Below, piece after piece: positions 1 through 22,223 of a DNA stretch of 22,851 bases (position 1 is its first letter; the number at the start of each line of letters is the position of its first letter). This stretch comes from a virus: positions 1 to 22,851 of the IMG/VR virus record IMGVR_UViG_3300007542_000202, one strand, 5' to 3'. The notes under the pieces were generated by a model. It made no database searches. It saw only the letters and a program-made list of their open reading frames with translations, and was not told where the DNA came from. The translations under genes and the position numbers were made by a program.

Positions 1-423
1 AACTAGAGCTTCACCTGAAATTGCAGTATCAGTGGAGACATCTCCAATACTGTTAAGTAATGCTATCGGTGCTTCTTGGTTTGTCCAACGAGAACCATCC
101 CATACTAAAGCTTCACCTGTTGTAACAGGGACATCCGTAGAGACATCTCCAAGACCGTCTACACTCGTTGCAATACCGTCAACATAAGCTTTAATACTTT
201 GTTGAGTAGCAATTGCTGAACTTGAGTCTGAGATCATATCGTCTTCGTCAAGAATAGTATTCACACTTGCAGAAGATCCGTTGATTGTAATAGGTGCGAT
301 AATGTCAATCGTTCCACCAACTACGTTAGGATTAATATTATCTGTTCGTATGCTCCTAGCAGTTTGAGCAAAAGCAATGTTCGTCAGAAGTATAAGAATT
401 AAAAGCGTAATTAATTTATTCAT
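1..423 (-). CDS. Exported fibre-like protein, partial (3' end beyond the window)
   Basis: The reading frame is open from an ATG at 423 to the left edge, giving 141 residues. Residues 1-19 form a clear Sec signal peptide (MNKLITLLILILLTNIAFA, likely cleavage before QT). The mature part is Thr/Ser/Asn-rich and low in charge. It carries the ATQQSIKAYVDG motif common in phage tail-fibre proteins, then two related segments (GDVSTD... GEALVWDGSRW and GDVSTD...GEALV) typical of repeated fibre shafts. The start overlaps the stop of the upstream fibre-adaptor gene as TAATG and has AAGGA about 7 bases upstream. Its position next to a T7-type fibre gene argues for a receptor-binding or fibre role. A signal peptide on such a protein is unexpected, since tail fibres normally assemble in the cytoplasm. 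It could instead be an exported host-surface modifier. The fibre-like fold is inferred from motifs only. Confidence 0.75.
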   Translation of the reverse strand, partial: MNKLITLLILILLTNIAFAQTARSIRTDNINPNVVGGTIDIIAPITINGSSASVNTILDEDDMISDSSSAIATQQSIKAYVDGIATSVDGLGDVSTDVPVTTGEALVWDGSRWTNQEAPIALLNSIGDVSTDTAISGEALV

Positions 424-1355
424 TAGTAATTCCTTGAAATTTCAAAATATCGGTTTTCACTAGCATCGTACATTAATGTTAAAGTGTCGTTAAGGCCAAG
501 ATAAGCGTCGCCTTTTAATAAACACCCACCTGCCGTATCACTGTAAGGAATGTGAACAATGTTTGAAGCACTTTTTCCCATAAGTGTAATAACTGCTCCG
601 TTTACTGGAGGTGCAAGGAAAGGACTTACTGAAGTCGTAACAGGTCCTCCGTTCCCTTGAATTTTTAAAAATTGTTGGTGTCCAGCATTTACTGTAATCT
701 CTCCACCTGCAGTAATATTCTGAGTATTCGAGATAACCTTAGCACCACCTGATAGAGCGTCAACCCATGCTGACCCACTCCATGTCTTTATATGGTTTGT
801 AACTGTACCTGATGGAAGAATGGCCTCAGTTAACTCAGCAAGAGTAAGACCATACTCAAGCCCGTCACCTGCAGCGTTTACTTTTAAATAAGCATCAGCT
901 TCTGAAGCAAAACCTGGAGGAAATTGAACATCGATAGCAGTCTCATCATCCAAGTCATTTATTCTAAGTCCTTGAGTACCTTTATAGGCCAGACGTTGAA
1001 CAGCACCTGCAATAAGATCTAATGCAAGTTCAAACTTCTTAAGGTTAAAACCGTTCTTATCACGGAACTCATAAGACTGAGTAGGTTCATCGTTAGCTTG
1101 AAGAAGTAATAAGGTGTAATTAGTTGGAAGGTTAGCTGCAAGATTGACAGTACCTCCACCATCAACGTTGTCAAACTCAACACTACTTAAATATGTTACG
1201 TCGTCTCCACGTACTCGCTGAGTTTCGACACCTGAATCGTCATACTCAACAATCTCTAAGTCTGTTAAAGCTTCAATTTTGAAATCAAAAGTGTAAGCTG
1301 ATAATGAGCCTGTACCTGTATACGATTCTTTGGGTGCGTAGGTTGATCTTGACAT
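423..1355 (-). CDS. Tail fibre / fibre adaptor protein (T7 gp17 N-terminal-like)
   Basis: 310 residues. The first ~130 residues follow the pattern of the T7 gp17 head-binding domain family: an N-terminal Y-x-G-x-G-x-x-x-x-Y-x-F-x-F block, a predicted beta-sandwich, then the aromatic/acidic segment QSYEFRDKNGFNLKKFELALD leading into a short helix. The C-terminal ~100 residues look like a beta domain found in phage fibre tips (FLKIQGNGGPV, GAVITLMGK, LTLMYDASENRYFEISRNY). There is no signal peptide. It follows the giant ejection protein, the same relative position as gene 17 in T7. AAAGGA lies 7 bases before the ATG. At 310 residues it is shorter than T7 gp17 (about 550), so it probably anchors a second fibre component, plausibly the following gene. 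The N-terminal attachment role is a family inference. Confidence 0.8.
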   Translation of the reverse strand: MSRSTYAPKESYTGTGSLSAYTFDFKIEALTDLEIVEYDDSGVETQRVRGDDVTYLSSVEFDNVDGGGTVNLAANLPTNYTLLLLQANDEPTQSYEFRDKNGFNLKKFELALDLIAGAVQRLAYKGTQGLRINDLDDETAIDVQFPPGFASEADAYLKVNAAGDGLEYGLTLAELTEAILPSGTVTNHIKTWSGSAWVDALSGGAKVISNTQNITAGGEITVNAGHQQFLKIQGNGGPVTTSVSPFLAPPVNGAVITLMGKSASNIVHIPYSDTAGGCLLKGDAYLGLNDTLTLMYDASENRYFEISRNY

Positions 1356-1370
1356 ATTAAAATCCTTTCA

Positions 1371-4300
1371 TTAATCTTTTTTACTGTCAATCTTTTTGAC
1401 TTGGTTCGTTATATGATTCTTAACATCTTTCACAGTTTCAAATCCTATAAATAAGTTCGCATTTTCCACAATCTCAGTCAATTTTTGATTATCATTATCC
1501 GATAACAATACTGCGATATAATCATTTGCCCCAAATCTATGAGCACCGTAAAGGTTATCTGTAGAAGGTTCTATTTGAAAAGAGCTAAGTCTCTTGGCAT
1601 TGTCCTCAAGACTCCATTTCATAGCTTTTTCTTGCTCTCTAGTGTCCTTAGACACCCTACCGTTATCGGTAAGGCCAAGGGAAGGATCTGCGTCATCAAT
1701 TTCCTCCCATCTTTGTTCAGTAAATTGATAAACACCTGCCGCACCTGTATTAGGGTCTACATCTTGCCAATCATTAATTTTGAAAGTGTCTAAAATATCT
1801 TCAGGTAGTAAATGAGTTTGGTCGGCATTAGGTGCTAAATCCCTTTGTAATTCCTCAAGAGCTTCGATATCTTCTTGCATGTCGGGATTATCTCCATGAC
1901 GTTCCTTGAAAAGTCTTATCTCATTAGCTAAACGGTCAGCTTCTCTTCCTAAAAATCCTCCAACAGCTCCAGGTAAACCTGTGTTATGGATAGTTTGTAA
2001 AATCTCTTGTGGACCTCTAATTGGAAAACCTCCTCCAAGATAAGAAGCTGTGGCAAAAAGTGACTTACGTTGTTGTTTACTTAATCTATCACCTTGTAAG
2101 AAATCGGCTAATGCTGAAACAAACGTTGCCATATCTGAAAATACTGCATTGATAGGAAGACGTACTTCTTTTTTACGTCTAAACCCACCTATAGCAAATT
2201 GGAAATCTCTTGCTACTGGTGTAACGTCAATTACACTTTTAGCTGGAGCAAGTGCAAAAGTCCCTACGGTATTGCCAAAGAACTTTTTAAGATCATTTAA
2301 GTCATTAACTTTCGCTAACTCTTTTATAGGACTATCATCTTCACCACGTATGCTAGAAATATAAAGCTGAGTCAACCCTTGAATCATTATGAAGGAACCT
2401 ATTGTAGCTGCAGCGTCCTTAGTATTTTTGTAATATTGTTTGGTGTCTCCAATCTTTTCTGCTTGTTTAGCTTTTTGTAATGATAGTCTAACTTTACGAC
2501 CCTCCGACATTGCTGTATTTAACTGTGCTCTTGAGTCTGTATAAAATGCTGTGAAAACTCTCATCAATGATACTTTCTCTATAGCAGATTTGTCGATCTT
2601 AGCACTTGTAGTTAATGCTAAGTCTGCTATCTGTTTAGCATATCTTTTAGCTTCTAGTTGTTTCTCAGCTTCAGTCATTGTATCAAGTTTTTCTTGTGGG
2701 AAAGCTTTTACATCTCCATTCATAAATTGAGAGTAAGAGGCAAGTGTTACTGCAGCTTTAATTTGAATATCGAGCTTAGTAAGTCCCCACATTGCAGCGT
2801 CTACCATTTTTTGCTTCGAGTTCTTCAACCATGCCATTTTCTTCGATTGCTTACCTGTTCTCTTCGTTTCAGGAATAAACTCGTAACTAGATTTTATAAC
2901 TGTGTCGTCTATGGAGTCTTGATTAAAAATTAAATCAGGATTAATTTCTGCGGCCATATTAAACATCTCATTATAATTATCGAGATTACTTAAAATTGCG
3001 CCTATTGATTTAGCGATATATCTACCACCCTTTGGACCCATTCTTAATGCAGCAGCTCCTAATGATACAGGTTGCATAGCTACTGATGAAAATTTAAAAC
3101 CTAAGTTAGCTACACTGAAGTTATTAACCAAGAATTTATAAACTGTATCTGCAGATCTAGCAGCATCAGAAAAAGGATTCAAAGCGTCTTGGTCATGGGA
3201 GTTACCTACAGTCTCAATCACTCCTGCAGTCATAGTTTTATATTTAGCTTCACCTACAGTCGCAATAATAGCGTTACTATAAGCTTCATTTCTCAATAAT
3301 TTTAAAACATCAGTACCAGCCTCTCTATATGACAAGTCGTGAATAGTCTCTTCAAAAGCGTGAAGTAGTTGTTTGAAATCAGTATCTAAAGCTCTACTTG
3401 AACCAAGACGATCCATTAATCGACCTTGTTCAGTTTGTTCAGCAGCTCTTAATCTACCGTAAAGTTTGTTGTCTTGTTTCTCACCAAACATAGAAAGCTT
3501 TTTGTCTCCCATCATATCTAGAAAACGATTAAGCTTCTCAGTAGGATTAGTGTTAAGGTAATTTAGAGGGACATATCCTCCTTCGTAAACTCTACCTTTG
3601 AACTCAATGGGTACACCTTTAACCATTGTAGGAGTTACGCCTGTAGTTCTTTCATGTAGTGCAATACTCTCTTCTTCAAAACTTTTGAAAATATTTATAA
3701 AATTCTGAGACAACTTAGCGTCTTTATGATCTAGATGTTGTTCTAATACTTTAGCTACAACATCTGCGTTCAACGCTTCACCTGTGACAGGATTTATAAA
3801 ATTTTGCATCCTTTCTCTAGCTTGAGGATCGCCAAGATAAGCGAATAGCATCCATAAATCTGACTTTGACATTTTACCATTACCTAATTCAGCAATGTTG
3901 TTAAATTCTGGTATGGTTACAAATTCGTTAAAAGCTGCTGCAAAATCCTTTTCACCATATTGAGCTGCGATTTTCTTTATTTGTTTAATTAATGCAAAGT
4001 TCTTAGATCTTTTCGATGTCTCTGCTTCAGTCATAGGAACTACTAGATTTTGATAATGTTCACCGCTTAAGTTCTCTTGATCTAATTCAGTTACTACGTT
4101 TTTAAAGTTAGTTAAAAAAGAACCTGCAAGAGCTACATTCTCGTTAATTCTTTGAGTAATATCTTTAGAGTTTTTGTTACGGACTTGCTGCAGTCTCGAC
4201 TCTTTATAGTTAGGATGTTCTTGAAGGTTTAAAACAGCGTCGGTTACTATCGCCTCTTCCGTTTGAAGTTTACCTTCCTTTGCTCTTTTATCCTGAACTC

Positions 4301-9085: not shown

Positions 9086-9087
9086 TG

Positions 9088-9579
9088 TTATCTGCTCCTT
9101 TGGTAGCCTGTAAGTCCTGACTGAGAGGCACCTAACACGCTTTGAAACATTACTTGTGAAGCTCTCGCTTGAGCTTGACTAAAATCTAAAGTTGATCCCA
9201 TTCTAATAGCTCTAGCTTCTCTCTCATAACCAAGGGATCTTTCTTGTGCTCTTTTTTCGATTTCCATTTTATTTAGATCAGCAATAAATTTAGACTCTTC
9301 TCTAATAGCTCCTGCAGTACCGAAACTAGTGTCAATATTAGCTGCACTTAAAGCAAGTTGTTGATCACTTAGAGTTTGATCAATCACTTTCTGATATTTA
9401 GCTTGAGCTGTGTATCCTTCAATCTCTGCATCGTAAGCGTCAAGTTCTGCAAACTCGGCGTTCATTTCAGCTATATCTCTATTTAACTCTGCTGTTGCTT
9501 TAATATTTTCCGCTGCAAAATAACCTGCAGCTAATTGTAAACCTGCTTGAGCACCGTATAAAGCTGCTAGTCCACTCAT
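9088..9579 (-). CDS. Internal virion protein (T7 gp14-like)
   Basis: 163 residues. It opens with a hydrophobic Gly/Ala segment (SGLAALYGAQAGLQLAAGYFAA, about residues 2-23), then a long amphipathic helical part rich in Ala and Glu. The pattern ALSAANIDTSFGTAGAIREE followed by a charged helix is typical of gp14-like core proteins in podoviruses, in which a hydrophobic N-terminus precedes a helical body. T7 gp14 is 196 residues and inserts in the outer membrane during ejection. The start overlaps the upstream nozzle gene stop as ATGA and has AAGGAG 6 bases upstream, one of the strongest ribosome sites in the window. The role as the outer-membrane part of an ejection channel is inferred from family and position. 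Confidence 0.7.
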   Translation of the reverse strand: MSGLAALYGAQAGLQLAAGYFAAENIKATAELNRDIAEMNAEFAELDAYDAEIEGYTAQAKYQKVIDQTLSDQQLALSAANIDTSFGTAGAIREESKFIADLNKMEIEKRAQERSLGYEREARAIRMGSTLDFSQAQARASQVMFQSVLGASQSGLTGYQRSR

Positions 9580-13068: not shown

Positions 13069-13077
13069 GTCTTATCC

Positions 13078-13515
13078 TTAAACTTCAGCGTCGTTTATTT
13101 TAGGGAAAGATTTATACTTAGCAATTTCGTCCTGTGGTACAAGGTATACATCAAGAGTAACAGTAGTTGTTCCACCAGTAATTGTATTTCTAAAACCGAT
13201 GTATTTTCTACTCATAACACCTTGAGGAATAGGAAGCTCAATTTCATCACCAAGAGCAAGGTCGGCAGCAGCAACTGTGACTGAACTTAGCGATTCAACG
13301 TTAGTAGTAAGAGCTGCATTGTCGGCTTGAATTACTTCCATAACGTGAGATGAACCTGCACCTGCAGCAACTGTAGGCATAACTAATAGGGCCATTCTAC
13401 GACCAATGCTAATGTCTTGTGCAGCAGTTTGTTTTTCATAAGCGTTGTCAGAAACTTCAGCACCACCTGTAAAAGCTTGAGCAACACATAATTGGTTTTG
13501 AATATCGAATCTCAT
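13078..13515 (-). CDS. Capsid decoration / cementing protein (Bbp16-like)
   Basis: 145 residues. It begins with QNQLCVAQAFTGGAEVSDNAYE and continues with a beta-rich body ending in RKYIGFRNTITGGTTTVTLDVYLVPQDEI, a pattern shared with the Bbp16 family of BPP-1-like phages: N-terminal Q-x-x-S/C-x-A-Q-A, a GxxR-xxLxV segment, and a C-terminal Y-x-G-x-x-Y-x-x-xG strand pair. These proteins bind the outside of the shell at capsomer junctions and stabilise it. The gene is directly downstream of the major capsid gene, the usual position. It has one of the strongest ribosome sites here (GGAGG 6 bases before ATG), fitting a protein needed in capsid-level copies. A hairpin separates it from the capsid gene. 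Confidence 0.8.
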   Translation of the reverse strand: MRFDIQNQLCVAQAFTGGAEVSDNAYEKQTAAQDISIGRRMALLVMPTVAAGAGSSHVMEVIQADNAALTTNVESLSSVTVAAADLALGDEIELPIPQGVMSRKYIGFRNTITGGTTTVTLDVYLVPQDEIAKYKSFPKINDAEV

Positions 13516-13547
13516 GGTCTTCCTCCAGAAAATTGTTAATTTGTCAA

Positions 13548-13567
13548 AAGGGGTCTTTCAACCCCTT
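13548..13567 (-). terminator. Terminator-like hairpin after the major capsid gene
   Basis: A perfect 7-bp stem (AAGGGGT / ACCCCTT) with a 6-base loop lies between the capsid stop and the decoration gene. On the transcribed strand it is followed by TTTTG, a short U-tract. This suggests a leaky intrinsic terminator or an mRNA-stabilising hairpin that could raise capsid transcript relative to downstream genes, comparable in position to T-phi after gene 10 of T7. The weak U-tract argues against full termination, and the downstream genes must still be expressed. Confidence 0.55.
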
Positions 13568-13579
13568 GTTCGTTAATCA

Positions 13580-14602
13580 TTAAGCAGTAACTTGAGCTTC
13601 ACTGTTTAAAATGGCATCCATTCTTCTTACAGGATCACCAAGGAAAGTAAGGATTTGCTTTCCTTCAAAGTTTTCAAAGCTAAGTCCTGCACCTGCTCCA
13701 ACTTTAGTAAGAGCTTGTTTATGTAAAGCAGCTTCAATAGTTCTGTTTACATACCAAACACCCATTCCGTTGTTCAGGTCATCAATCTTGTAGTTAGCAG
13801 AGATCATTAGGTCGATAAGATCGGCACCAGATCCAGCAACAAGATCAGAAACATCAATGTTCGCTACACGAGCACACTGACGGTAATCTTTAACAACAAG
13901 TCCGTGGTCAGTCATGAACTCTTCTTCATAACCCCAGAAGTCACCAGCGTTTCCATTCTCATCAAGACCAGGGATCTTAACAAGTTGTCCACCTTTCGAG
14001 TGATCTTTTCTAGTGATACCTGAAGAAGTTCCTTTAGGATAAACACCAAACACTGATCTTTCACCCCAATGTACTTTTAGAATCGAAGTGTTATCAGATC
14101 CTGTTCCACCAGCATCAATAATTTGATTACTAGTAGGTTCAGTAGCCGCTAGAGTTGAAAGAATATCAAAGAAACCTGCAGTTTTTCTATTAGCTGTAGC
14201 AGGTGAACCATAAATCATAAGGCTTGCAAGTTCATTTGCATGAGCTTGAAGGTGTCCTTGAGCTTGGTTCCATCTGTTGTAAGCTACTCTATCCATTCCA
14301 CCACGCTCAGCAACAGCACGGTCGATTTGAGATTTCGACTCAAAGTGAGAAGCTTGGAAAGTTCTCTCTTCGATTGTACTTTTAGAAGCTGGAATAGGCT
14401 GGTTAGCCTTTCTGTAATAGACCGCAGGAAGTGCTGATCTAATGTCTTCTTTGTGAACAGTACCTTCGTTCATCTCCATATAACCAATGTCATTTAACAT
14501 GGCATTGTGTTGGACGAGAACTTCGGCCACTTTTCCAATTTGTTTGTCTTTACTTTTTGCTACATCAGCAAGGGTAAGTAGTTCTGATCCTAAAGCTGCC
14601 AT
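13580..14602 (-). CDS. Major capsid protein (BPP-1/podovirus type, HK97 fold)
   Basis: 340 residues. The N-terminus LGSELLTLADVAKSKD...VAEVLVQHNAMLNDIGYMEMNEGTVHKEDIRSALPAVYYRKANQPIPASKST matches a widespread family of podovirus capsid proteins: TL-x-D-x-A, then E-x-L-x-Q-x-N-x-x-L-x-D, then R-x-x-LP-x-x-Y-x-R-x-N-x-G/P-x-x-x-S-K-S-T. Next comes NELASLMIYGSPAT, the 'E-x-A-x-x-x-x-YG' block typical of the same family. It is encoded between scaffold and decoration genes. GGAGG lies 6 bases before the ATG, a very strong site suited to the most abundant virion protein. No protease-cleavage delta domain is apparent, so the separate scaffold presumably directs assembly. The HK97 fold is a family inference. 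Confidence 0.88.
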   Translation of the reverse strand: MAALGSELLTLADVAKSKDKQIGKVAEVLVQHNAMLNDIGYMEMNEGTVHKEDIRSALPAVYYRKANQPIPASKSTIEERTFQASHFESKSQIDRAVAERGGMDRVAYNRWNQAQGHLQAHANELASLMIYGSPATANRKTAGFFDILSTLAATEPTSNQIIDAGGTGSDNTSILKVHWGERSVFGVYPKGTSSGITRKDHSKGGQLVKIPGLDENGNAGDFWGYEEEFMTDHGLVVKDYRQCARVANIDVSDLVAGSGADLIDLMISANYKIDDLNNGMGVWYVNRTIEAALHKQALTKVGAGAGLSFENFEGKQILTFLGDPVRRMDAILNSEAQVTA

Positions 14603-14617
14603 GTAAAACCTCCAAAA

Positions 14618-15412
14618 TTATTCATACATCTCATCTAAAAAATTCTTAGTCTCTACTTGTCGTTCATTCGGTTGCTGTCCGTTAACCATTTTTGTTGTTG
14701 GGTTAAGGAGCTTAGAAATCCCTAGCAAGTCTTTCATAATATAAGGAGGCAACATTGACCCCCGTTCTGTCAAGGTTTTTTTCATATTTGGAAAGTGTTT
14801 TTCAAGAAGTTTCTCCACACGATCCACATTTTTATCAAAATGCTCCCCTCCAAACGTCTTGTCTGACTTCAATTCAGATAACCACGCCTTTCTTTGAGCT
14901 TTAACTTGAGCTTGATAGTCCACTTCTGATTGAGCAGCATCATCCTTGGCAAACTGTACATAAGCTTCGATTTGCTCCTTGGTCATTTTATTCTCAAGAG
15001 CAAATTTAGAAACTTTTTCTTTATCTACTGATTCTGGTAACTCACCAAGAGACTTATCAATATCTTCTTTTGTAAGTTCTTCAGGTTTTTTCTCATCTTC
15101 AGGTTTCTTCTCATCGTCTGCAGGCTTATCATCTTCTTTAGGTTGATCACCTTCACCATAACCTGAAGATACTTTTTTCTCATCGTCTGCAGGTTTATCG
15201 TCTTCTTTAGGTTGATCACCTTCAGCAGGCTTTTTCTCATCATCTGAATATCCTGAAGATACTTTTTTCTCATCTTCACCTTCAGCAGGTTTTTGATCAC
15301 CTTCAGCAGGCTTTTTCTCATCGTCTGAATACATGTCTTGAATTACTGACTTGTCGTCAGTCTGTTGTTGGGACGTCGTGTTCGAGTCGGTGTTGTTCGC
15401 AGAGGTCGTCAT
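14618..15412 (-). CDS. Scaffolding protein with acidic repeat region
   Basis: 264 residues, extremely charged. Residues 1-30 are Thr/Ser/Gln-rich. Residues about 28-115 are low-complexity Asp/Glu/Lys/Pro repeats built from units such as YSDDEKKPAEGDQ, PKEDDKPADDEKK and KKVSSGY. The C-terminal half (about 120-264) is helical and matches phage scaffolds: KAWLSELKSDKTFGGEHFDKNVDRVEKLLEKHFPNMKKTLTERG resembles the 'W-x-x-x-x-x-D-x-E-F/L-GG-x-x-x-x-x-x-x-x-x-A' block followed by a helical tail. It lies immediately upstream of the capsid gene, as T7 gene 9 does. It would guide prohead assembly and then leave. The start at 15412 has AAAGGG about 6 bases upstream and lies inside the 3' end of the preceding gene, a 56-base overlap in another frame. 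Confidence 0.8.
   Translation of the reverse strand: MTTSANNTDSNTTSQQQTDDKSVIQDMYSDDEKKPAEGDQKPAEGEDEKKVSSGYSDDEKKPAEGDQPKEDDKPADDEKKVSSGYGEGDQPKEDDKPADDEKKPEDEKKPEELTKEDIDKSLGELPESVDKEKVSKFALENKMTKEQIEAYVQFAKDDAAQSEVDYQAQVKAQRKAWLSELKSDKTFGGEHFDKNVDRVEKLLEKHFPNMKKTLTERGSMLPPYIMKDLLGISKLLNPTTKMVNGQQPNERQVETKNFLDEMYE
15100..15340 (-). repeat. In-gene degenerate repeats encoding the acidic Asp/Glu/Lys/Pro segment
   Basis: The 5' third of the scaffold gene is built from recurring blocks such as CATCGTCTGCAGG(C/T)TTATC, TTTAGGTTGATCACCTTC and GAAGATACTTTTTTCTCATC (plus-strand readings), each present two or more times. The repeats keep frame and code for YSDDEKKPAEGDQ and PKEDDKPADDEKK units. This looks like slippage or recombination expansion of a disordered linker. 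Copy number is likely to vary between relatives. Confidence 0.7.
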
Positions 15413-15707
15413 ATTTTTCCCTTTCTAGTTTTGAGACAAGTGAAGCTGCGATTTCTGAATCCGCTTCACACGCAAGTTTATAAATTGAATTACCTGCTCT
15501 AAGAAAACCTAAGTAATCATAAAGCTCTTTTCCACTCATTTCAAGTGGCGGTAACTCGCCAACATTCAAATTTTTGAACAAATACTTAAAAAGCTTTTGA
15601 CCATCGTCAGTAGTTAAAATACTAGCAATGGCCAAAAGAACGTCCCTATGTTCGAGACGTTCCTTACGTTCTTTTTGTAGAAAATATTCTTCTAATTTTT
15701 CAGACAT
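15357..15707 (-). CDS. Bbp19-like phage protein
   Basis: 116 residues from the ATG at 15707; an upstream ATG at 15776 lies deep within the previous gene and is not preferred. The chosen start follows the previous stop in a TAATATG junction. Residues about 21-95 (HRDVLLAIASILTTDDGQKLFKYLFKNLNV...GKELYDYLGFLRAGNSIYKLACEADSEIAASLV) fit the Bbp19-like domain of podoviruses: D-x-x-x-x-L-x-T-x-x-G-x-x-x-x-x-x-L, then G-x-R-x-x-G-N-x-x-x-x-x-L, then a short helix. These proteins are encoded between portal and scaffold/capsid in BPP-1-like phages; their exact role is not settled. It is all-helical, without membrane segments. Its last 56 bases overlap the scaffold gene in another frame. The ribosome site is weak, so coupling to the upstream gene is likely. 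Confidence 0.65.
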   Translation of the reverse strand: MSEKLEEYFLQKERKERLEHRDVLLAIASILTTDDGQKLFKYLFKNLNVGELPPLEMSGKELYDYLGFLRAGNSIYKLACEADSEIAASLVSKLEREKYDDLCEQHRLEHDVPTTD

Positions 15708-15708
15708 A

Positions 15709-16212
15709 TTAGTTGATGTCTGCCCATGTCCCGATTGTAGAAACAGGTGCCCATGAGTCAGGTGTAATCGCTTCAAGCATGATAGAATTACCTAGAGTAG
15801 CATTTCTAATAGCGTCACCTGTTGCATCAGTTTCAACAAGGATCTGGTTAGGATCTGTTGGGTTGATGTCAAAGTTAGAAGCATCAGCAGTGATAAAAGT
15901 CAATCTACAACCTAAGTTAGCAGAAGCTTCAGGAAGTTGAATTTCAACAGCTCCTGAGTTATAGAAAGTAGAACCACACTGAGCTGAAGTAATGGTAGTA
16001 GCTGTCGCAGCAACTTGAGCTTGATCGAAACCAGTTCCATCAACATCAATTTCAAAAACTCCATTAGCAGCTCTTGAACACGTAAGACCAGCATCACAAT
16101 TAATCTTGTTAAAGATTTTCAGTGAAGTACCACCGTTCTTACCTTCAAAACCTGCGTGAGCTACGCCAACAATAAGACAAAGTAACAAAATAATATTCAA
16201 TACTAATTTCAT
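15709..16212 (-). CDS. Exported beta-rich protein with Sec signal peptide, four mature cysteines
   Basis: 167 residues. Residues 1-20 are a textbook signal peptide (MKLVLNIILLLCLIVGVAHA, cleavage likely before GF). The mature part has cysteines at about 39, 45, 79 and 102, enough for two disulfides, consistent with export to the periplasm. The C-terminal ~95 residues (VEIQLPEASANLGCRLTFITAD, FDINPTDPNQIL, GNSIMLEAITPDSWAPVSTIGTWADIN) resemble a beta domain common in phage fibre or decoration proteins, usually ending in GTW-T/A-D. The ribosome site is among the strongest here (AAAGGAGG 4 bases before ATG), so high expression is expected. It lies between portal and Bbp19-like genes. It is unclear whether it is a virion part, an exported superinfection-exclusion factor, or a fibre accessory. 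Confidence 0.75.
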   Translation of the reverse strand: MKLVLNIILLLCLIVGVAHAGFEGKNGGTSLKIFNKINCDAGLTCSRAANGVFEIDVDGTGFDQAQVAATATTITSAQCGSTFYNSGAVEIQLPEASANLGCRLTFITADASNFDINPTDPNQILVETDATGDAIRNATLGNSIMLEAITPDSWAPVSTIGTWADIN

Positions 16213-16233
16213 AAACCCTCCTTTAAGGTGTTA

Positions 16234-17934
16234 TTAAAATTGAACCGCTGAGGCATCCTTGGCAGCTTTGGCCACCGCAGGAAGTGTCTCTTGCAATGCT
16301 TGCTGCCTCTGAGCTTGCATCTGAGCTTGCTCCCTCATTGCGTCTACTTTACTTTGAGAATTATTCAACCCTGAAGGTAAATATAAACGATCTTCGTAAA
16401 GATCCGCAAGCTTATCTGTATTAAGTTTGTCTAATATTTTTGGATCAATTTGGGCAACATTCCCAATCATTGCGGCAAATCTATCAATTGCAGGAAGATC
16501 CGCAGCTTTTTGAGCTTGAGCAAAAACTGAGACAAATTCTGGTTTTAATGTCTGACCCTCAAGAGATTGAGGTACTGGTTTCAAATATGGATCTTCAAAA
16601 AGTACATAATCCATAACCCATTCCAAGACAGGAATATTATATGTATCGTTAAGACTTTGAAGATTAGGTCCGATAATTCTTTGTTGTTCTTCTAAAATAG
16701 CACTTGTCTCTGTCGCTGTTCTCGTCTTAGGGTTTTTAGAAAGATAAAGTAGAAAGTCAGCATAATATAACTTATCAACCATTTGTCTCAAATCGCCTAC
16801 ATCTTGAATTAATGCTCCAATTGCAGGATTAATTTGAAAGACGGGTTCCAATTTTTGTCTATTTGAAATTGATCTGCCGTCTATTGGAATAAAGCTATTA
16901 GGAGCACTAGATATGTAACTCTTTCTAAGACTTGCTGGACCTTGCAAAGTAGGTTTTAAAATTTGCTCCAACGCTTGATCTTTACCGATGCCTTTTTTAT
17001 TCAAAGACTTGATTAATCCAAGAGCATCAAGTGTAGGACCTTTTTCACCGTACTCAAAATCAGGAGTAGATTTACCTACTACGAAAGGTTTTCTCTTACC
17101 TGTAAATTTTCTAAGGAAAACGTCATCTTCTCTTGAAGTGTAACCAGTTCCAAATTCTGTCCCTGCTGAGAAAAAGTGACCACTTCCTCCACCTAGTTCA
17201 TAAGTTAATTCTAACCATTGACGGTTATCTGGAACATCTGGGAACTCAGGGTCAAAATCAGGATTCTCTTTTACGATATGAACTATATCTACGAGTTGAG
17301 AATAATTCCCATCCTCGTACATCTTTTTTACATTCTCAGAAATATTAGACCAATCAGGTCTACCGTCAGCGTTCTTTCTACCGTAAGTATCTACTACAGA
17401 TTTCACATTAAGGGAGAACTCTCTAACCAATATTATAGCTTCGCCGTAAGAATTATTTAAAACAAAATATGAACCTGGGATTAACGTATGGACATGAAAG
17501 CCGTTATCTAATTCCTCGAAGTAATGAGCACCTGTGTTAACTACTCCGTAGTCATAATAAAATATACCAGCAGCATTATAAAAATTCGACGAACCTAAGT
17601 AATCTAGAGTTCGCTGAGTAAAATGCTGTAACCATTCTCTAGACTCGCCGTCCTCAGTCAAATCACTGTCTCTAGTACCTGCACGATACCAAGGACGAGA
17701 AGCTGAAGTGTTACCTTCTAAAAACCCTGCTACGAAAGACCGTAAAGCAAGGGTATGAGTAGGATCTACTATATGTTGATTCTTTCTTTCCCCTGGAGTT
17801 TGACTTAATATCCAAGTCGATTTATAGGGAAGACCCCATCTTAATAGATCGCACCAAGTTGTACGGACTTTATCAAAGTTCTGTTTAGCTTGGTGGCGAA
17901 TAAATTCACAAGTTTGTTTTGAATATGTTTTCAT
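16234..17934 (-). CDS. Portal (head-tail connector) protein, podovirus type
   Basis: 566 residues, close to T7 gp8 (536). The N-terminus shows the podovirus connector pattern: a helix with W-x-D-L-x-RWGLPYKSTW, then IVDPTHTLALRSFVAGFLEGNTSASRPWYR, the conserved 'D-x-T-x-x-x-A-x-x-x-x-A-x-G-x-x-x-x-x-x-P-x-x-x-W-F/Y' block. Further matches are YYDYGVVNTGAHYFEE (early core) and TATETSAILEEQQRIIGPNLQSL (late helix, the E-x-x-x-R-x-x-x-G-x-x-x-x-x-x stem region). The C-terminus is Gln/Ala-rich and helical (MREQAQMQAQRQQALQE), a probable barrel. Its ATG overlaps the upstream stop as ATGA. It forms the dodecameric DNA channel to which terminase and the gp11-like adaptor bind. Confidence 0.88.
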   Translation of the reverse strand: MKTYSKQTCEFIRHQAKQNFDKVRTTWCDLLRWGLPYKSTWILSQTPGERKNQHIVDPTHTLALRSFVAGFLEGNTSASRPWYRAGTRDSDLTEDGESREWLQHFTQRTLDYLGSSNFYNAAGIFYYDYGVVNTGAHYFEELDNGFHVHTLIPGSYFVLNNSYGEAIILVREFSLNVKSVVDTYGRKNADGRPDWSNISENVKKMYEDGNYSQLVDIVHIVKENPDFDPEFPDVPDNRQWLELTYELGGGSGHFFSAGTEFGTGYTSREDDVFLRKFTGKRKPFVVGKSTPDFEYGEKGPTLDALGLIKSLNKKGIGKDQALEQILKPTLQGPASLRKSYISSAPNSFIPIDGRSISNRQKLEPVFQINPAIGALIQDVGDLRQMVDKLYYADFLLYLSKNPKTRTATETSAILEEQQRIIGPNLQSLNDTYNIPVLEWVMDYVLFEDPYLKPVPQSLEGQTLKPEFVSVFAQAQKAADLPAIDRFAAMIGNVAQIDPKILDKLNTDKLADLYEDRLYLPSGLNNSQSKVDAMREQAQMQAQRQQALQETLPAVAKAAKDASAVQF

Positions 17935-18326
17935 AACCCTAAGAAGTCTCCCTCAGTATCTCCTAAATTAGAAAATCTATTAGAAGGGATACTGCTTTTT
18001 GATCCTGTGGGTCTTCTCGCAGCTCCAGATCTCCGCGACAACTCTAATTGCTCAAGAGTGTTTTGTTCTCTAGCTGCTTCCCTTTCTCTTAATCTATTTG
18101 CTTTTTCTTCTTCAAATTGCGACCTTGCCAGCTCGTTAGCTTGTTCTGCAGCAGCAGCACCTGTAACTATCTTCAAGCCTTCTCTACCTTTCTCGACACC
18201 TTTCTCGATTACTCCACCTGTGATCGAATCGTCCTCTCCATTAAAACCTAAAGTACCTAGAGTACCTACTTGAAGAACTGTATCTATGACATTTTCAAAA
18301 ACACTATTTTCTGAACTTCCACACAT
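17931..18326 (-). CDS. Small phage protein preceding the portal, unknown function
   Basis: 131 residues. The N-terminal ~60 residues are Gly/Val-rich (NVIDTVLQVGTLGTLGFNG), the middle (about 55-100) is an Ala/Glu/Arg helix likely to form a coiled coil, and the C-terminus is Ser/Arg/Gly-rich and disordered (SGAARRPTGSKSS). This three-part layout recurs in small proteins encoded beside podovirus portals, but no function can be named from sequence. GAGG lies about 7 bases before the ATG. The stop overlaps the portal start as ATGA, so it is probably translated in step with the portal. A minor head component is one possibility. Confidence 0.55.
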   Translation of the reverse strand: MCGSSENSVFENVIDTVLQVGTLGTLGFNGEDDSITGGVIEKGVEKGREGLKIVTGAAAAEQANELARSQFEEEKANRLREREAAREQNTLEQLELSRRSGAARRPTGSKSSIPSNRFSNLGDTEGDFLGL

Positions 18327-18336
18327 ATATGTACCT

Positions 18337-18783
18337 CTATTTATCGAGTCTTTTACTGTATTCTATGTTCATGATGTCATAGCCTAATCTTTTAAGCAAT
18401 AGTCCATAATCATTTTTAGACTTGACATGATGATATACTACCTGAACACCAAGCTTTTTCAATTGTTCATCGCACCATGATATAAAACTAGCTCCCCGAC
18501 CTCTTTTGTCAGGATGAATGAAAATATTACTCAAAGAAGCTTGAGGTGATTTAAAATATTCTAAAGGATTAAATAAGTTGAAAGCTGCATATCCAATTAA
18601 CCGATCATCTTCTTTCATAGTGTAAAACTTTAAAAGACCATTTTTCTCTAATACCTCTATTTTTATCCAATTGATATTTATAGGAATATCATCATAAGGA
18701 CACGACTCTTTGTAATGAAGTCTGGCCAATTGTTCTACTTCATCTACATGATCAACTATTTTTTCATGACTAAAAGTTATCAT
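18337..18783 (-). CDS. GNAT-family N-acetyltransferase
   Basis: 148 residues from the ATG at 18783. That start is preferred over 18795 because GAGG lies exactly 6 bases before it. The fold pattern is clear: an N-terminal helix, strands around 52-71 (LKFYTMKEDDRLIGYAAFNL), then the acetyl-CoA binding motif A, SNIFIHPDKRGRGASFISWCDEQLKKLG (about 85-112, with R-G-R-G-A at 94-98), then VVYHHVKSKNDYGLLLKRLGYD, the motif B 'N-x-x-x-x-x-x-x-x-x-GF/Y' equivalent. It would transfer an acetyl group from acetyl-CoA to an unknown amine. The start overlaps the end of terL by 14 bases. Acetyltransferases appear between terminase and portal genes in some podoviruses; substrate and purpose are unknown. Confidence 0.82.
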   Translation of the reverse strand: MITFSHEKIVDHVDEVEQLARLHYKESCPYDDIPININWIKIEVLEKNGLLKFYTMKEDDRLIGYAAFNLFNPLEYFKSPQASLSNIFIHPDKRGRGASFISWCDEQLKKLGVQVVYHHVKSKNDYGLLLKRLGYDIMNIEYSKRLDK

Positions 18784-20329
18784 AGTCGACCTCATGTTCT
18801 TGTAACTTAATTACTTGTGACCCTGCGCCCATGAATCTACCGTCTTCACCTATCTCGTTCTCAGGTAATTTATCTTGAACGTCATAAGCGAAAAGAAGTA
18901 CAGCACCGTCAGCAATATCGGGGGACTTACCTACACGATCTTTAATATCAAGTTTAGATTCTGCCATCTTTTTATGAGTGACTTTATGTCGAGTCCCTTT
19001 TGTCCAGCAAAGTTGTTTTTTAATATCTTCGATCCATTCAGGTTTCCTTGCATCTAAAATCCCACCCATCATAAGGTCTTTATTTAAGAGATAGTACATC
19101 ATTGCTCTAATATTTCCGTACTCACTCTCTTTTGGTTCTGGAGTATCTGTAGGCGAACCTGCAAACGATACTAGCACCCAATGATATTTCTGTGCGTTCA
19201 TTGCCAAGGTGAATATTGCAGTCCCTTCCCCTTGGTCAATGTGAACCGCATCGGCTTGAAGCTTACGTTCCCAATAGCAAAGTTTATTGTAAGTGACCTG
19301 ATGAGTTTCACCACGTTGTTTATTAAGTTTATATCTCTCAAGTAAACATTTATAAGGTCCTTGCTTATACCAGATAGTTGTCTCATCTCCACCTGTCCAT
19401 GCAGGGTCACAAGATAAAATGACAGGAAAATTCTTCACACTAGCAATATCGAAAGTGTGCCTACGTGCTAACGCTGCTTCAACACTCTCCAATTTTATAA
19501 TAGAGTCCTTAGCTGACTTACGTGGTAATCCTCTAACACGAACTCTAAAGTCATCGTGATCCTCATCTCCTCCAGCATCAATTAACCATGCTTCGATTTG
19601 CTTAGGGTCAATGTGAGAAAGAGTACGAGTGTCAATACGTCGAGAGGTCCATAAAGGTGACGCCATATTTTGTTCAAACTTACTTTCAGGGTCATCCGAG
19701 TTCCCAAACGCCATGTGAATTTTAATTGTCTCAGTCTCAGTAAAAGCACCCGAAGCATATTGCCAAATAATTGCAGGAATACCTGGAGCTTCTTCAAAAA
19801 CATAAACCGCTGCCCCACCCTTATTGTGAAGACCTGAGATAGCTGCAGGAGATTGTTCAGACCATGTGACGGTATCGATCCTCCACTTCTCAGCTAAACT
19901 AGGGTTCTTAGCTTTGATAGATGTTCCAAACTTTTCAAAGAAATGATCAACGTACCTAGCACGTCTAAACCATACGTCGTACTCAGGCCATATAATCTGC
20001 TTCATCTGAGGGTCAGTGTTAGCAGTGATACGTGCTTTCAGCCTCTGAGTGAATAAAAGCATTATCATAGTCATTGCACCGAAAGCAGTTTTAGCAGATC
20101 CGTTACCTGAAGAAATTACAAGACGGTAAGTTTGATATCTTGTTTCAGGATTGGAAAGATGTCTGGAGAGTTTATCCCACTCTTCCATCTGCCAATCGTA
20201 AGGTGCCATATTTTCAAGATCGGTGTCTTTCTCACCGAATGGAAAAATAATATAAGCTAATTTGCAGAAATCGTAACGATTCTCGTTAATGAGTTTTTTA
20301 AATATCTCAATGTCTTGATCTACACTCAT
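18770..20329 (-). CDS. Terminase large subunit (TerL): packaging ATPase and nuclease
   Basis: 519 residues. Walker A-like motif SGNGSAKT at about 74-81 (K80), a variant of the TerL S-G-x-G-x-x-K-T/S loop; Walker B with catalytic Glu in AVYVFEEAPG (about 174-183). The RNaseH-like nuclease domain starts near 300: first acidic residue in VILSCDPAWTGGDET (D308), second in VHIDQGEGT (D365), third in SPDIADGAVL (D471/D474). All core catalytic positions are present, so the enzyme appears intact. It cuts concatemeric DNA and drives it through the portal. The start overlaps the stop of a 25-codon upstream gene as ATGA and lacks a strong ribosome site of its own, implying translational coupling. It is separated from terS by four small genes. 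Confidence 0.93.
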   Translation of the reverse strand: MSVDQDIEIFKKLINENRYDFCKLAYIIFPFGEKDTDLENMAPYDWQMEEWDKLSRHLSNPETRYQTYRLVISSGNGSAKTAFGAMTMIMLLFTQRLKARITANTDPQMKQIIWPEYDVWFRRARYVDHFFEKFGTSIKAKNPSLAEKWRIDTVTWSEQSPAAISGLHNKGGAAVYVFEEAPGIPAIIWQYASGAFTETETIKIHMAFGNSDDPESKFEQNMASPLWTSRRIDTRTLSHIDPKQIEAWLIDAGGDEDHDDFRVRVRGLPRKSAKDSIIKLESVEAALARRHTFDIASVKNFPVILSCDPAWTGGDETTIWYKQGPYKCLLERYKLNKQRGETHQVTYNKLCYWERKLQADAVHIDQGEGTAIFTLAMNAQKYHWVLVSFAGSPTDTPEPKESEYGNIRAMMYYLLNKDLMMGGILDARKPEWIEDIKKQLCWTKGTRHKVTHKKMAESKLDIKDRVGKSPDIADGAVLLFAYDVQDKLPENEIGEDGRFMGAGSQVIKLQEHEVDYDNF

Positions 20330-20403
20330 CTCATTATCCCATCAATACCAAGGAACACGATGACTGCTAATATTAAAAATACAACCTCGTAACTCTCAAG
20401 CAT
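20326..20403 (-). CDS. 25-residue single-span membrane microprotein
   Basis: A short frame from an ATG at 20403 to a TGA at 20328-20326. It begins MLESYEVVF, followed by a continuous hydrophobic segment at about residues 7-19 (VVFLILAVIVFLG), and ends in a short IDGIMR tail. It has a good ribosome site (GAGG, 5 bases before ATG), and its stop overlaps the terL start as ATGA. It fills the only otherwise empty stretch between 20330 and 20405. These points make it more credible than a chance frame. It could be a small membrane protein with its own role, or mainly a leader that couples terL translation. It is too short to be a typical holin. Confidence 0.6.
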   Translation of the reverse strand: MLESYEVVFLILAVIVFLGIDGIMR

Positions 20404-20405
20404 AA

Positions 20406-20654
20406 TTACCTCGGCATTGGGAAATTTGGAGGGAGAGGCAGGTTACTAGGTTTTGTTTCTATTAAATGTCCCCACAACATCAACAGACCTTTCTCCATAT
20501 CTCCCATGTTATTTGAATGTAAATATTGTACATTACCTTTAGGATCAACAACACTTAAATTATAAAACATCTTGTTGTTACCTTGACAATTAAAACAATG
20601 ATGAATGTTTTTATTAGTTAGTTCAGAAAGTATTGAAAAAAACTTAGACATCAT
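20406..20654 (-). CDS. Small protein of unknown function with a CxxC motif
   Basis: 82 residues, not recognised. It contains HHCFNCQG at about 18-25, a lone CxxC with adjacent histidines; one such pair is not enough to claim a zinc site, although HH plus CxxC could bind a metal. The middle is strand-like (MFYNLSVVDPKGNVQYLHSNNMG), then a helix (MEKGLLMLWGHLIE), then a Pro-rich tail. The start at 20654 overlaps the upstream stop as ATGA; a second ATG follows directly. It belongs to the run of small genes between terS and terL. Confidence 0.6.
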   Translation of the reverse strand: MMSKFFSILSELTNKNIHHCFNCQGNNKMFYNLSVVDPKGNVQYLHSNNMGDMEKGLLMLWGHLIETKPSNLPLPPNFPMPR

Positions 20655-20920
20655 TTGTTCTCGATAAAGTTATCTTTAAAATCTTCAGGACCGAATACAG
20701 CGAACTCTCCCCTCAAGTCTTTTATAAGATAGTCATTTTTCTTAATTACTAAAGTGTCTTCTAAGTCATCGAGCAAACCCAGAACTTCTCTGCTGTTAAC
20801 TACTTTTCTAAACCTTAACACGTCAGAGTCATTTACGAACTCAGCAAGCTCTTGAGTATTATCACCATTAAATTGAATTGCATCTACGGACTTAAGTTTA
20901 CGAATGTACTTTTTAATCAT
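20651..20920 (-). CDS. Small phage protein resembling the 'GDYIIKG-GEF' family
   Basis: 89 residues. The layout matches a common small phage protein: an N-terminal basic strand then AIQFNGDNTQELAEFVND (the 'V-x-A-x-Q/W-x-G-x-N-x-x-E-x-x-x-F' block), a beta stretch, then TLVIKKNDYLIKDLRGEFAVFGPEDFKDNF, matching the 'G-D-Y/W-I-I-K-x-x-x-G-E-F-x-x-x-x-x-D-x-F' signature. Here the usual Gly before Asp is Asn (KNDY). The function of the family is not established. The ATG overlaps the end of the upstream gene by 8 bases and has GAGG 9 bases upstream. Confidence 0.7.
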   Translation of the reverse strand: MIKKYIRKLKSVDAIQFNGDNTQELAEFVNDSDVLRFRKVVNSREVLGLLDDLEDTLVIKKNDYLIKDLRGEFAVFGPEDFKDNFIENK

Positions 20921-21170
20921 GAGCGTCTACCTCGATAAATTGATTTTCATTAAAGTATTCATCACAATACTCGCAATAAATCAACCCTTCATATCTATCA
21001 TCACCTAACGTAAAGTTATTACACCCACTTGCAAGGAGTCTCTTATTCCATATTTTATAACTACCGTCTGGATAGTGTTCAAAATACTCAAAGTTTTTCA
21101 ACTTGAACGTATCGGCATTTAACACTATTTTATGTTTAGGTCTTACACCTACATGTTTAAACGTCATCAT
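20913..21170 (-). CDS. Small protein of unknown function with CxxC motif
   Basis: 85 residues, not recognised. It has a cysteine near 50 (SGCNNF), a CEYC pair at about 70-73 and a histidine near the end, possibly a loose metal site but not a standard zinc ribbon. It is rich in Tyr/Phe/Lys/Asn. Two ATGs are adjacent (21170 and 21167) and AGGA precedes both; the second has the better spacing. It overlaps the end of terS by 14 bases. Confidence 0.55.
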   Translation of the reverse strand: MMTFKHVGVRPKHKIVLNADTFKLKNFEYFEHYPDGSYKIWNKRLLASGCNNFTLGDDRYEGLIYCEYCDEYFNENQFIEVDAHD

Positions 21171-21840
21171 TCTTCCTTGGTGTTATGTCGATTATCTCAG
21201 GCTTACGTCTCTCTTCAGCTCGCCTAGCACTCTCCAACAATATAGATGCCATGTCTTTAGTAACAGTATGCTCAACTTTAGTAGTGTTCTTAAACATCTC
21301 TTTCTCTTTACCTACTAACTCAGACGCTTTCAACTTGTCATAGAACTCATACTCAATCAACTCTCCAACAATCAACTTCTCTTTCATTCCATTAATGTCT
21401 TCAACCTGCTTATACAAATTCTTAACCTTCATCTTCTTTATATTTCTACGAGCTTCAGGCGGTATGTCGTGCATGTTACTCTTAAAAGTACCATCAGGAT
21501 TCTGAACCATTATAGGATCAAACTCAACGACCTCTTTAACACGCTCGAATATCTCACTATTGTCGAACCCATACTTAATCGCACTCTTATCGATCAACTT
21601 CTGTATGGCCAAGGACACGTCTCTCCTATGACGGATTTTATAACCATCTCTAGGATGAATACCTGCCTCCACACTCGCCTGTGAAATACTCTTACATGCT
21701 ACAAACGCATCAATAAAGGCAATAACACTAGCGTCCTTGCGGTGCTTTGCCTTAAGAGTAGCATCAAGTATAAAGCTAGACTCATCCGTGGTCAGCTCTC
21801 CACTATTCTCTTTAACTGTATCTGGAACAGGTAAACTCAT
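21157..21840 (-). CDS. Terminase small subunit (TerS)
   Basis: 227 residues from the ATG at 21840. A GTG at 21846 would add two residues but the TAATG overlap with the upstream gene favours 21840. Residues about 35-90 (ASVIAFIDAFVACKSISQASVEAGIHPRDGYKIRHRRDVSLAIQKLIDKS) show the TerS N-terminal helix-turn-helix pattern: 'FI-x-x-F-x-x-x-x-S-x-x-x-A-x-x-x-AG' followed by a recognition helix and the 'R-x-x-x-V-x-x-x-I-x-x' helix. The middle (EIFERVKEVVEFDPIMVQNPDGTFK...IPPEARRNIKKMKV) fits TerS proteins with a 'DP-x-x-x-x-...-L/I-P-x-x-x-R-x-x-I' segment. The C-terminal part is helical and charged. It would recognise the packaging site and recruit TerL. The repeat-rich DNA upstream of the operon is a candidate recognition region, though this is inference. 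Confidence 0.82.
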   Translation of the reverse strand: MSLPVPDTVKENSGELTTDESSFILDATLKAKHRKDASVIAFIDAFVACKSISQASVEAGIHPRDGYKIRHRRDVSLAIQKLIDKSAIKYGFDNSEIFERVKEVVEFDPIMVQNPDGTFKSNMHDIPPEARRNIKKMKVKNLYKQVEDINGMKEKLIVGELIEYEFYDKLKASELVGKEKEMFKNTTKVEHTVTKDMASILLESARRAEERRKPEIIDITPRKNDDV

Positions 21841-22223
21841 TACCACTGCACTCCCATAATAAGGTCAACAGATGCACCAGTACCTGAAATGGTTTTTACA
21901 TTACCTCGAACATATCTATAAGGAGCGTCTAAGTAAAAAAGATCACCTGACGAGTCAGCAGTCGCTAAAGTCAATGACAACTCATCTACCTCAATAAAGT
22001 CCGTACCATTATTAGACACCTCAATACCAATTGTAGCAGCACCTGCACCTGCTGACGTAGATCCTACACCATGAAACGTCCTCTTCGACTCCAAGGGTTG
22101 AAATGCAGTACCTGCACCTGTAGCAGTCGCAGCACTTACAATAGAAATTGTCTTAACCTTTCCCATCCCTGCAAACACGCTCATCGAAACAAGCAGCATC
22201 ACCATACTCAACAAAATTTTCAT
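21840..22223 (-). CDS. Exported beta-rich protein, first gene of the operon
   Basis: 127 residues from the ATG at 22223, chosen because AGGAG lies 8 bases upstream; the longer frame from 22259 has no ribosome site and would bury the signal peptide behind a charged extension. Residues 1-18 are a signal peptide (MKILLSMVMLLVSMSVFA, cleavage likely before GM). The mature protein is Ala/Gly/Thr/Ser-rich. Its end IEVSNNGTDFIEVDEL...FYLDAPYRYVRGNVKTISGTGASVDLIMGVQW resembles a small beta domain in phage structural proteins, in which 'S-x-DG-x-x-x-x-x-V' precedes 'A-P-Y/W-R/K-Y-V-R-x-N-V'. It is the first gene after the promoter and is coupled to terS by TAATG. A virion-like domain carrying a signal peptide is unusual. 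Confidence 0.72.
   Translation of the reverse strand: MKILLSMVMLLVSMSVFAGMGKVKTISIVSAATATGAGTAFQPLESKRTFHGVGSTSAGAGAATIGIEVSNNGTDFIEVDELSLTLATADSSGDLFYLDAPYRYVRGNVKTISGTGASVDLIMGVQW

Follow-up and report, generated by a model that had tools for sequence, protein, structure and literature searches.

Sec-type signal peptides on fibre- and decoration-like proteins of a podovirus clade suggest an exported part of the virion

Why would a tailed phage place export signals on proteins of its own structural operon? By the textbook account, tailed phages are put together in the cytoplasm, with no export step. Here we consider this question for a viral DNA of 22,851 nucleotides (hereafter the window), in which three minus-strand proteins—SP1, SP2, and SP3—open with strong Sec-type signal peptides.

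The window is part of a podovirus genome whose genes follow the order of Bordetella phage BPP-1; this order, together with the portal, capsid, and cement genes, a T7-like tail tube, and internal proteins, places it with the BPP-1/epsilon15-like phages. The minus strand encodes the terminase small subunit (TerS; 21157..21840), the terminase large subunit (18770..20329), the portal or head-to-tail connecting protein (16234..17934; PF12236), g15357 at the position of BPP-1 Bbp19 (15357..15707), a scaffold/protease-like protein (14618..15412; phrog_458), the major capsid protein (13580..14602; phrog_212), a Bbp16-like capsid cement protein (13078..13515; PF21190), and the tail-fibre adaptor FibN (423..1355); neither of the last two has a signal peptide. 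The major capsid protein is 37-39% identical to those of cultured relatives, and relatives of the portal were absent from an 85,000-species genome set. Apart from SP1–SP3, the virion genes (portal, terminase, HK97-type capsid genes) are those of an ordinary tailed phage.

SP1 (21840..22223) opens the late operon, ahead of TerS, and begins with MKILLSMVMLLVSMSVFA^G (22170..22223; mature start GMGK). SP2 (15709..16212) lies between the portal and g15357 and begins with MKLVLNIILLLCLIVGVAHA^G (16153..16212; mature start GFEG), while SP3 (1..423), the start of a protein cut by the contig end, begins with MNKLITLLILILLTNIAFA^Q (367..423; mature start QTAR). Each shows the features of a Sec/SPI signal: a positive n-region, a hydrophobic core, small residues at -3/-1, and a start with a ribosome-binding site, the Shine-Dalgarno sequence standing at normal distance in all three (AAGGAG in SP1, AAGGAGG in SP2, and AAGGA in SP3).

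Such N-termini could be artefacts, either of start codons placed too far 5' or of chance hydrophobicity; we found no point in support of this, and it is extremely unlikely. No alternative start near the cleavage sites has a normally spaced Shine-Dalgarno sequence: SP1 offers an ATG at codon 20 without one, SP2 has no alternative start codon in this region, and the nearest in SP3 is codon 54. Wrong start codons as the origin of the signals are ruled out by this Shine-Dalgarno placement. As for chance, one strict signal-peptide rule was applied to the homologues of all window gene families, and it passed 2/2 for SP1, 13/14 for SP2 (the fourteenth also passes when read from its real start), and 2/2 for SP3; in the other 19 families 0/227 homologues passed, whereas a signal peptide is kept in 22/22 distinct relatives of SP2. 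The three signal-peptide genes listed by the initial annotation are confirmed, as is their recurrence within one structural operon, and the signals are conserved in the relatives surveyed.

Those 22 relatives also keep SP2 in a constant place, in the order portal-SP2-g15357; in phages lacking SP2, g15357 directly follows the portal. Every relative is built in the same way—a signal peptide, then a conserved two-cysteine module, then an exchangeable tip. In the window, the N-module GFEGKNGGTSLKIFNKINCDAGLTCSRA (16069..16152), kept while tips are exchanged, carries two invariant cysteines, and the T4 gp10/TSP4/capsid-spike-like tip domain (15712..16026) carries two conserved ones. These are the four mature cysteines that had been noted earlier (residues 39, 45, 79, and 102), and relatives sharing this tip retain all of them. 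The modelled tip (pLDDT mostly 72-82) resembles CBA120 TSP4, T4 gp9/gp10, and the Pa223 capsid spike at Z about 8-11: the top structural matches reach Z 10.3-10.8 with rmsd 2.1-2.9 over 88-96 residues, T4 gp9 scores Z 9.5 and gp10 Z 7.9, and a profile match to 9ny6 has an E of 0.0029. No SP2 was found in cultured phages.

SP1 joins its signal peptide to a small jellyroll-like domain with zero mature cysteines, and a relative in L004 has the signal peptide as well. The SP1 model (pLDDT 63) is closest to XepA/YomS of Bacillus subtilis prophages (Z 10.4), which outscore the BPP-1 cement jellyroll of Bbp16 (3j4u; Z 8.7); a jellyroll fold may be common to all of them. XepA and YomS have been described as lytic cassette proteins (PMC6834076), and Bbp16 is a capsid cement that SP1 does not resemble by profile. 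The earlier description of the mature parts as fibre- or decoration-like holds, in that their models (of moderate confidence, pLDDT 61-63 overall for SP1 and SP2) are beta-rich with phage-like folds; the virion-type folds predicted for the SP2 tip and SP1 would support a place in the virion. The clade carries its own separate Bbp16 gene, and we rejected the idea that SP1 or the SP2 tip (ii) is a diverged duplicate of it: the profile comparison was negative, with no sequence-profile similarity between SP1 and PF21190 or the clade Bbp16. SP2 tip (ii) has a weak phrog_427 match.

SP3 and its relatives combine fibre-like repeats with a position after the fibre adaptor, as a tail fibre or receptor-binding protein would; the full-length homologue in L035 has 1305 aa, and the visible part of SP3 has no mature cysteine. 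The gene that follows FibN encodes a signal peptide in 15/17 phages (the window, L013, L015, L017, L018, L019, L035, L037, L038, L039, L041, L042, L043, L057, and MW202898) and lacks one in L012 and L044. In BPP-1, the equivalent locus, after the fibre Bbp9, holds the receptor-binding protein Mtd. Cysteine makes up 1.02% of signal-bearing fibres, 0.36% of signal-free fibres, and 0.20% of FibN, a difference confounded by the different tip domains.

The fibre and FibN appear to be partners. The C-terminal part of FibN (about 426-713) is the presumed fibre docking site, and its class A form co-occurs with a GIPL N-terminus on the fibre in 5/5 phages (three signal-bearing, two signal-free), a pairing for which linkage between neighbouring genes may be partly responsible. 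In the two signal-free phages, L012 and L044, a middle protein carries both the class A and the GIPL domains, which would follow from GIPL binding class A to form a chain. One presumed docking domain and one partner domain on the adaptor are common to signal-bearing and signal-free fibres. This conservation bears on the suggestion that periplasmic fibres, freed at lysis, act as soluble decoys that saturate receptors on debris and neighbours, sparing progeny virions from adsorption. The lack of a visible surface anchor after cleavage, tips of receptor-binding type (C1q-like in L015), and a gene position just ahead of the lysis genes would all suit a decoy; however, a decoy gives no reason for a docking domain shared by both forms, and FibN would become the sole virion fibre in many phages. 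We regard decoys as distinctly improbable.

Relatives with downstream starts and no signal, which the initial annotation had set against export, do occur for the fibre (L012 and L044) and for SP1 (L035/L084), with none for SP2 (0/22). Both kinds begin at the mature boundary: the fibre reads M-GIPLGSNF in L012 and L044 against A^GIPLSTNF in L037 and A^GIPLSSNF in L019, and the signal-free SP1 homologue starts one residue past the SP1 cleavage boundary (MMGITKT in L084 against A^GMGKVKT). Since these proteins start at the cleavage boundary, they suggest that the mature protein stays the same and only its export module comes and goes, rather than that a start was mis-called. Phages use signal-type membrane tethers for lysis proteins, and SP1–SP3 might likewise stay uncleaved at the inner membrane until lysis, in the manner of signal-arrest-release lysins; hydrophobic N-termini alone would suffice. 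Against this, good cleavage motifs with small residues persist even as the hydrophobic core diverges, and the signal-free forms start where cleavage would fall, making tethering very unlikely. Judged from sequence, export is not fixed across the whole set—SP2 appears always to be exported, the fibre in some phages but not in others, and the SP1 domain seldom. Nor is it needed for the fibre architecture: the fibres of L012 and L044 are signal-free and these two phages lack SP2, and in BPP-1, Vibrio phage 1.021.A, and Pelagibacter phage HTVC034P the tested proteins close to or behind the fibre adaptor carry no signal peptide.

We narrowly favour the reading that SP1–SP3 are accessory virion proteins given a removable Sec signal peptide, exported, and docked to virions at lysis; SP3 would be the distal tail fibre or receptor-binding protein, and SP1 and SP2 small decoration- or spike-like proteins. 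All three would be expressed late, together with the rest of the structural genes, sent through Sec, and probably cleaved by signal peptidase; folding would follow in the periplasm, where many of the fibres, like SP2, could form disulfides. The cytoplasm would remain the usual site of assembly for heads and for tails with their FibN adaptor. Once the holin has permeabilised the inner membrane at lysis, the cytoplasmic and periplasmic pools would meet, the mature N-terminus of the fibre may dock onto the FibN C-terminal domain, and the exported proteins would become part of the virion. The observed basis comprises the signal peptides, their conservation, their gain and loss at the mature boundary, the docking and partner domains that both fibre forms have in common, and the correspondence of this locus to that of Mtd. 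For the clade as a whole, we put it just short of an even chance that these tailed dsDNA phages assemble the virion in two compartments, with exported, often cysteine-rich fibres or decorations joining at lysis and signals gained and lost as modules.

Some phages of the clade probably infect Bdellovibrio-like predatory bacteria. A lysis-region lipoprotein encoded by L012 and L019/L005 has its matches in Bdellovibrio phages alone (5/5 records); it was not found in the 18 other records tested, and the lysis region lies outside the window fragment. A second lysis gene used as a host marker (L015:16086-16397) gave no match, and the GC-rich member L088 suggests other hosts too. A patescibacterial host was considered and rejected: a clade contig lies in MAG nzgw467, but there is a match in just 1/384 genomes of the class, neither Omp85 nor 16S was found in the MAG, and its publication reports several viral genomes in the bin, so co-binning is likely.

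Bdellovibrio itself has mosaic adhesive trimer (MAT) fibres, chromosomal adhesins with a signal peptide, a conserved N-terminal part, a phage-like shaft, and exchangeable tips, which have been observed on the predator surface and its vesicle (PMC10769870). An N-terminal domain of about 130 aa or an S74 domain is common to MATs. Because Bdellovibrio owns signal-bearing, phage-like fibres, a host-surface role is the main rival to docking at lysis: the exported fibres would be displayed on the infected cell like MAT fibres, altering prey or surface binding or blocking superinfection. SP2 has the same kind of layout, as an analogy of layout only, its signal peptide is never lost, and the lipoprotein ties two clade members to Bdellovibrio phages. 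However, the genes lie within the late structural operon and form no separate moron unit, the fibre retains the domain by which signal-free relatives pair with the virion adaptor, BPP-1 encodes its virion receptor-binding protein at this locus, and five fibres (L013, L015, L035, L037, and gp68 of Bdellovibrio phage phi1422) have no sequence match to solved MAT tips. We therefore find a surface role somewhat unlikely; among the options raised by the initial annotation, the addition of fibres outside the inner membrane is best supported, by the docking pair and the Mtd-equivalent locus, ahead of host-surface coating and superinfection exclusion.

Export signals on fibre- and decoration-like proteins suggest that these phages build some of the particle beyond the inner membrane and attach it at lysis. 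If true, an export step would be added to the tailed-phage assembly scheme, and disulfide-rich receptor-binding proteins could become possible; the same step could explain the relation between phages of predatory bacteria and the predator's phage-like MAT fibres. A literature search, most subscription journals aside, found no paper on signal-bearing fibres of tailed phages.

Among known systems, inoviruses have virion proteins with cleavable signal peptides, pIII and pVIII, and the receptor-binding pIII undergoes disulfide-linked folding outside the cytoplasm before joining the virion. Inoviridae, however, are extruded through the envelope without lysis, whereas the clade described here consists of otherwise ordinary tailed phages with predicted export. 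We know of no signal peptide on T4 gp9/gp10, TSP4, or the Pa223 capsid spike. With these the SP2 tip has a fold in common at 12-17% identity (CBA120 TSP4 and the Pseudomonas phage Pa223 capsid spike, PDB 7rej, 9ny6). BPP-1 Bbp9/Mtd has the same gene order and the same receptor-binding protein locus, but Mtd lacks a signal peptide and owes its variation to a diversity-generating cassette, and BPP-1 has no SP2-like gene. Compared with MATs, the clade fibres are encoded by late genes of the phage and carry a domain for docking to the virion adaptor, in hosts that are probably related. In the cultured Bdellovibrio phage phi1422 (NC_019525), gp67 has a marginal match to the class-B adaptor C-terminus (E 0.0099), on which we do not rely; gp68, annotated as hypothetical and with no sequence match in any other phage record, has 614 aa and a strong signal peptide, and lies directly after a tail-fibre gene. 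Although phi1422 is a myovirus of another lineage, its arrangement is similar to that of the clade fibres, and the export reading is thus directly testable in a cultured phage.

All clear genes of the window, a virus record of 22,851 bases, lie on the minus strand: TerS, TerL, GNAT, a PF12236 portal, a scaffold/protease, a phrog_212 capsid protein, a Bbp16-like cement protein, tail tube proteins, T7-like internal proteins, and a tail-fibre adaptor, in the gene order of Bordetella phage BPP-1. Against the nearest cultured phages, identity is only 37-39% for the capsid protein and about 33% for TerL; the rest of the clade, in this analysis, consists of metagenomic contigs with portal identities of 61-80%. 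In one of the related loci two open reading frames make up the portal gene (L031:4573-6284), and in another a small ORF between TerS and TerL resembles, by eye, an HNH-type endonuclease (L089:1484-1936).

Three proteins begin with signal peptides: SP1 (21840-22223), SP2 (15709-16212), and SP3 (1-423), all on the minus strand. These ORFs, their signal peptides, and the four cysteines of mature SP2 are as the initial annotation described them. A Shine-Dalgarno sequence precedes each of the three starts (AAGGAG, AAGGAGG, and AAGGA), and none of the alternative starts near the three cleavage sites has one at normal spacing. A strict signal-peptide rule of our own, used in place of SignalP, was run on the counterparts of all window genes across the related loci—it passes 2/2 homologues of SP1, 2/2 of SP3, and 13/14 of SP2 (14/14 when the true start of the L002 homologue is taken), and 0/227 across the other 19 families.

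SP2 lies between the portal gene and g15357 (15357..15707, minus strand), the gene at the position of BPP-1 Bbp19. Relatives collected with one SP2 alignment and a search of whole records gave 22 distinct sequences, all with an N-terminal signal peptide; the strict rule passes 20, the L002 sequence passes in addition from its downstream start, and the signal of L088 is slightly less hydrophobic, yet clear by eye. Behind the signal lies a conserved two-cysteine module, typically AGFEGxxxGTSLKIFNKINCSTGLTCT; a repeat shaft is optional, and last comes one of three tips that show no evident similarity to one another: (i) the window type, (ii) that of L002, L030, L031, and L086, and (iii) that of L080, L087, and L088. 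Tip (i) matches the folds of CBA120 TSP4, Solidus gp83, the Pa223 capsid spike, and T4 gp9/gp10 (Z about 8-11), and its profile matches the Pa223 capsid spike (E 0.0029). In the L012, L015, and L044 phages, where the sequence is complete, the portal directly adjoins g15357 with no gene between, as in Vibrio phage 1.021.A and Microcystis phage Mel-JY33. Since some phages lack the gene and all 22 SP2 sequences have the signal, SP2 is, judged from these sequences, an accessory insert that always carries a signal peptide where present.

The SP1 domain is common among phage contigs (77 loci matched), the great majority without a signal peptide. The L035 phage has a homologue of 60% identity in the same place, starting MMGITKT at most one residue from the SP1 cleavage site; the signal is thus gained or lost at the mature boundary. 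A clear signal peptide is present on this domain in the window, in L004, and in the other contigs L101, L121, L123, and L126, the last four being why signal addition to this type of domain seems to have been more than one event. Two further loci, L093 and L159, passed the rule and were judged false-looking. The predicted SP1 fold (model pLDDT 63) is a jellyroll that scores Z 10.4 against XepA/YomS and Z 8.7 against the BPP-1 cement protein. At 22346-22688, upstream of the late operon, are two tandem repeat arrays, with a 48-bp unit in 2.2 copies and a unit of about 17 bp (CTACACTCTCCAGGACT) in 7.6 copies; the reverse-strand repeat unit contains GGAGAGTGTA, which is also the ribosome-binding region of SP1.

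SP3 is incomplete at the contig end—its nearest homologue is a 1305-aa protein of L035—and it follows FibN (423..1355, minus strand), the tail-fibre adaptor without a signal peptide. The gene next to FibN is signal-bearing in 15 of the 17 phages with this junction, and complete signal-bearing fibres there span 532 to 1305 aa. In the other two, L012 and L044, the fibres have no signal and begin M-GIPLGSNF; signal-bearing counterparts read A^GIPLSTNF (L037), A^GIPLSSNF (L019), and A^QSGIPLQTNF (L039), where ^ marks the predicted cleavage site. The FibN C-terminal domain sorts into classes, and the GIPL N-terminus is found on the fibre in exactly the five class-A phages (L012, L019, L037, L039, and L044), three with and two without a signal peptide. 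Because the pairing holds regardless of the signal, signal-bearing GIPL fibres appear to retain the domain that, in signal-free relatives, seemingly docks to the virion adaptor; linkage between adjacent genes is a possible confounder. L012 and L044 also have an intermediate protein that begins with GIPL and ends in a class-A domain, as a head-to-tail chain FibN-fibre-fibre would require. Elsewhere, a second signal-bearing protein immediately follows the signal-bearing fibre (L015:14360-14797 and L039:14176-14835), the former fibre-assembly helper-like by eye and with no family match. The public genome ct8d5349 (MW202898) encodes a signal-bearing C1q-like fibre (L061:35766-38486) whose annotated start (35733) is seemingly 11 codons too far upstream.

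We favour, at slightly better than an even chance, a reading in which accessory virion proteins would be exported by Sec and would dock at lysis. The sequences show the signal peptides, their conservation, their gain or loss at the mature boundary, and the pairing of domains; from these we infer that the proteins are cleaved, fold in the periplasm, dock, and belong to the virion. Cysteine content is 1.02% for the mature signal-bearing fibres, against 0.36% for the signal-free ones and 0.20% for FibN; in SP2 the two of the N-terminal module are invariant, as are the two of the tip within type (i), and neither window SP1 nor the visible portion of SP3 has mature cysteines. This pattern fits an oxidising compartment, though it is confounded by domain type. 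Two other readings are action as soluble decoys, which we hold improbable, and membrane tethering, which we consider very unlikely. Upstream of TerS, the opposite strand encodes two more small signal-bearing, cysteine-containing proteins at L005:3239-3523 and 3859-4131.

A lysis-region lipoprotein of the L012 phage matches, among 50,697 phage records, only the Bdellovibrio phages phi1422, phi1402, and MAC3UK; a homologue is present in the L005/L019 phage, whose genes include SP2 and a signal-bearing fibre, and none was found in 18 other records. Cultured phi1422 encodes a signal-bearing protein of 614 aa, gp68 (MKFMIAFIIALFSVTMATA^QIKGVD), immediately after its tail-fibre gene gp67; no description of gp68 was found in the genome paper (PMC3391216). 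Both gp68 and gp75 (L064:40429-42273 and L064:44298-44810) are annotated as hypothetical and have strong signal peptides. Bdellovibrio's own mosaic adhesive trimer (MAT) fibres are signal-bearing and phage-like (PMC10769870). The lipoprotein matches, the gp68 arrangement, and the MAT fibres together make a Bdellovibrio-like host likely for some members of the clade, not necessarily for the window; L088, a GC-rich member, points to additional hosts. A MAT-like role on the host surface is the main rival to export and docking, and we regard it as possible, if rather unlikely. A contig of this clade (L055, L057; JAHFMX010000016.1) sits, probably through co-binning, inside the Patescibacteria MAG nzgw467, which is reported to be prophage-rich.

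Our literature search found no report of such signal-bearing fibres or decorations, a weak negative, since most subscription journals lay outside its coverage. Signal-bearing virion proteins are known from filamentous phages, and in tailed phages signal peptides are known on lysis and exclusion proteins; we know of no tailed phage with a conserved signal-bearing set of fibres and decorations. At the locus after the adaptor, BPP-1 encodes its receptor-binding protein Mtd without a signal peptide; in Vibrio 1.021.A and HTVC034P, too, the proteins that follow the fibre adaptor are signal-free.
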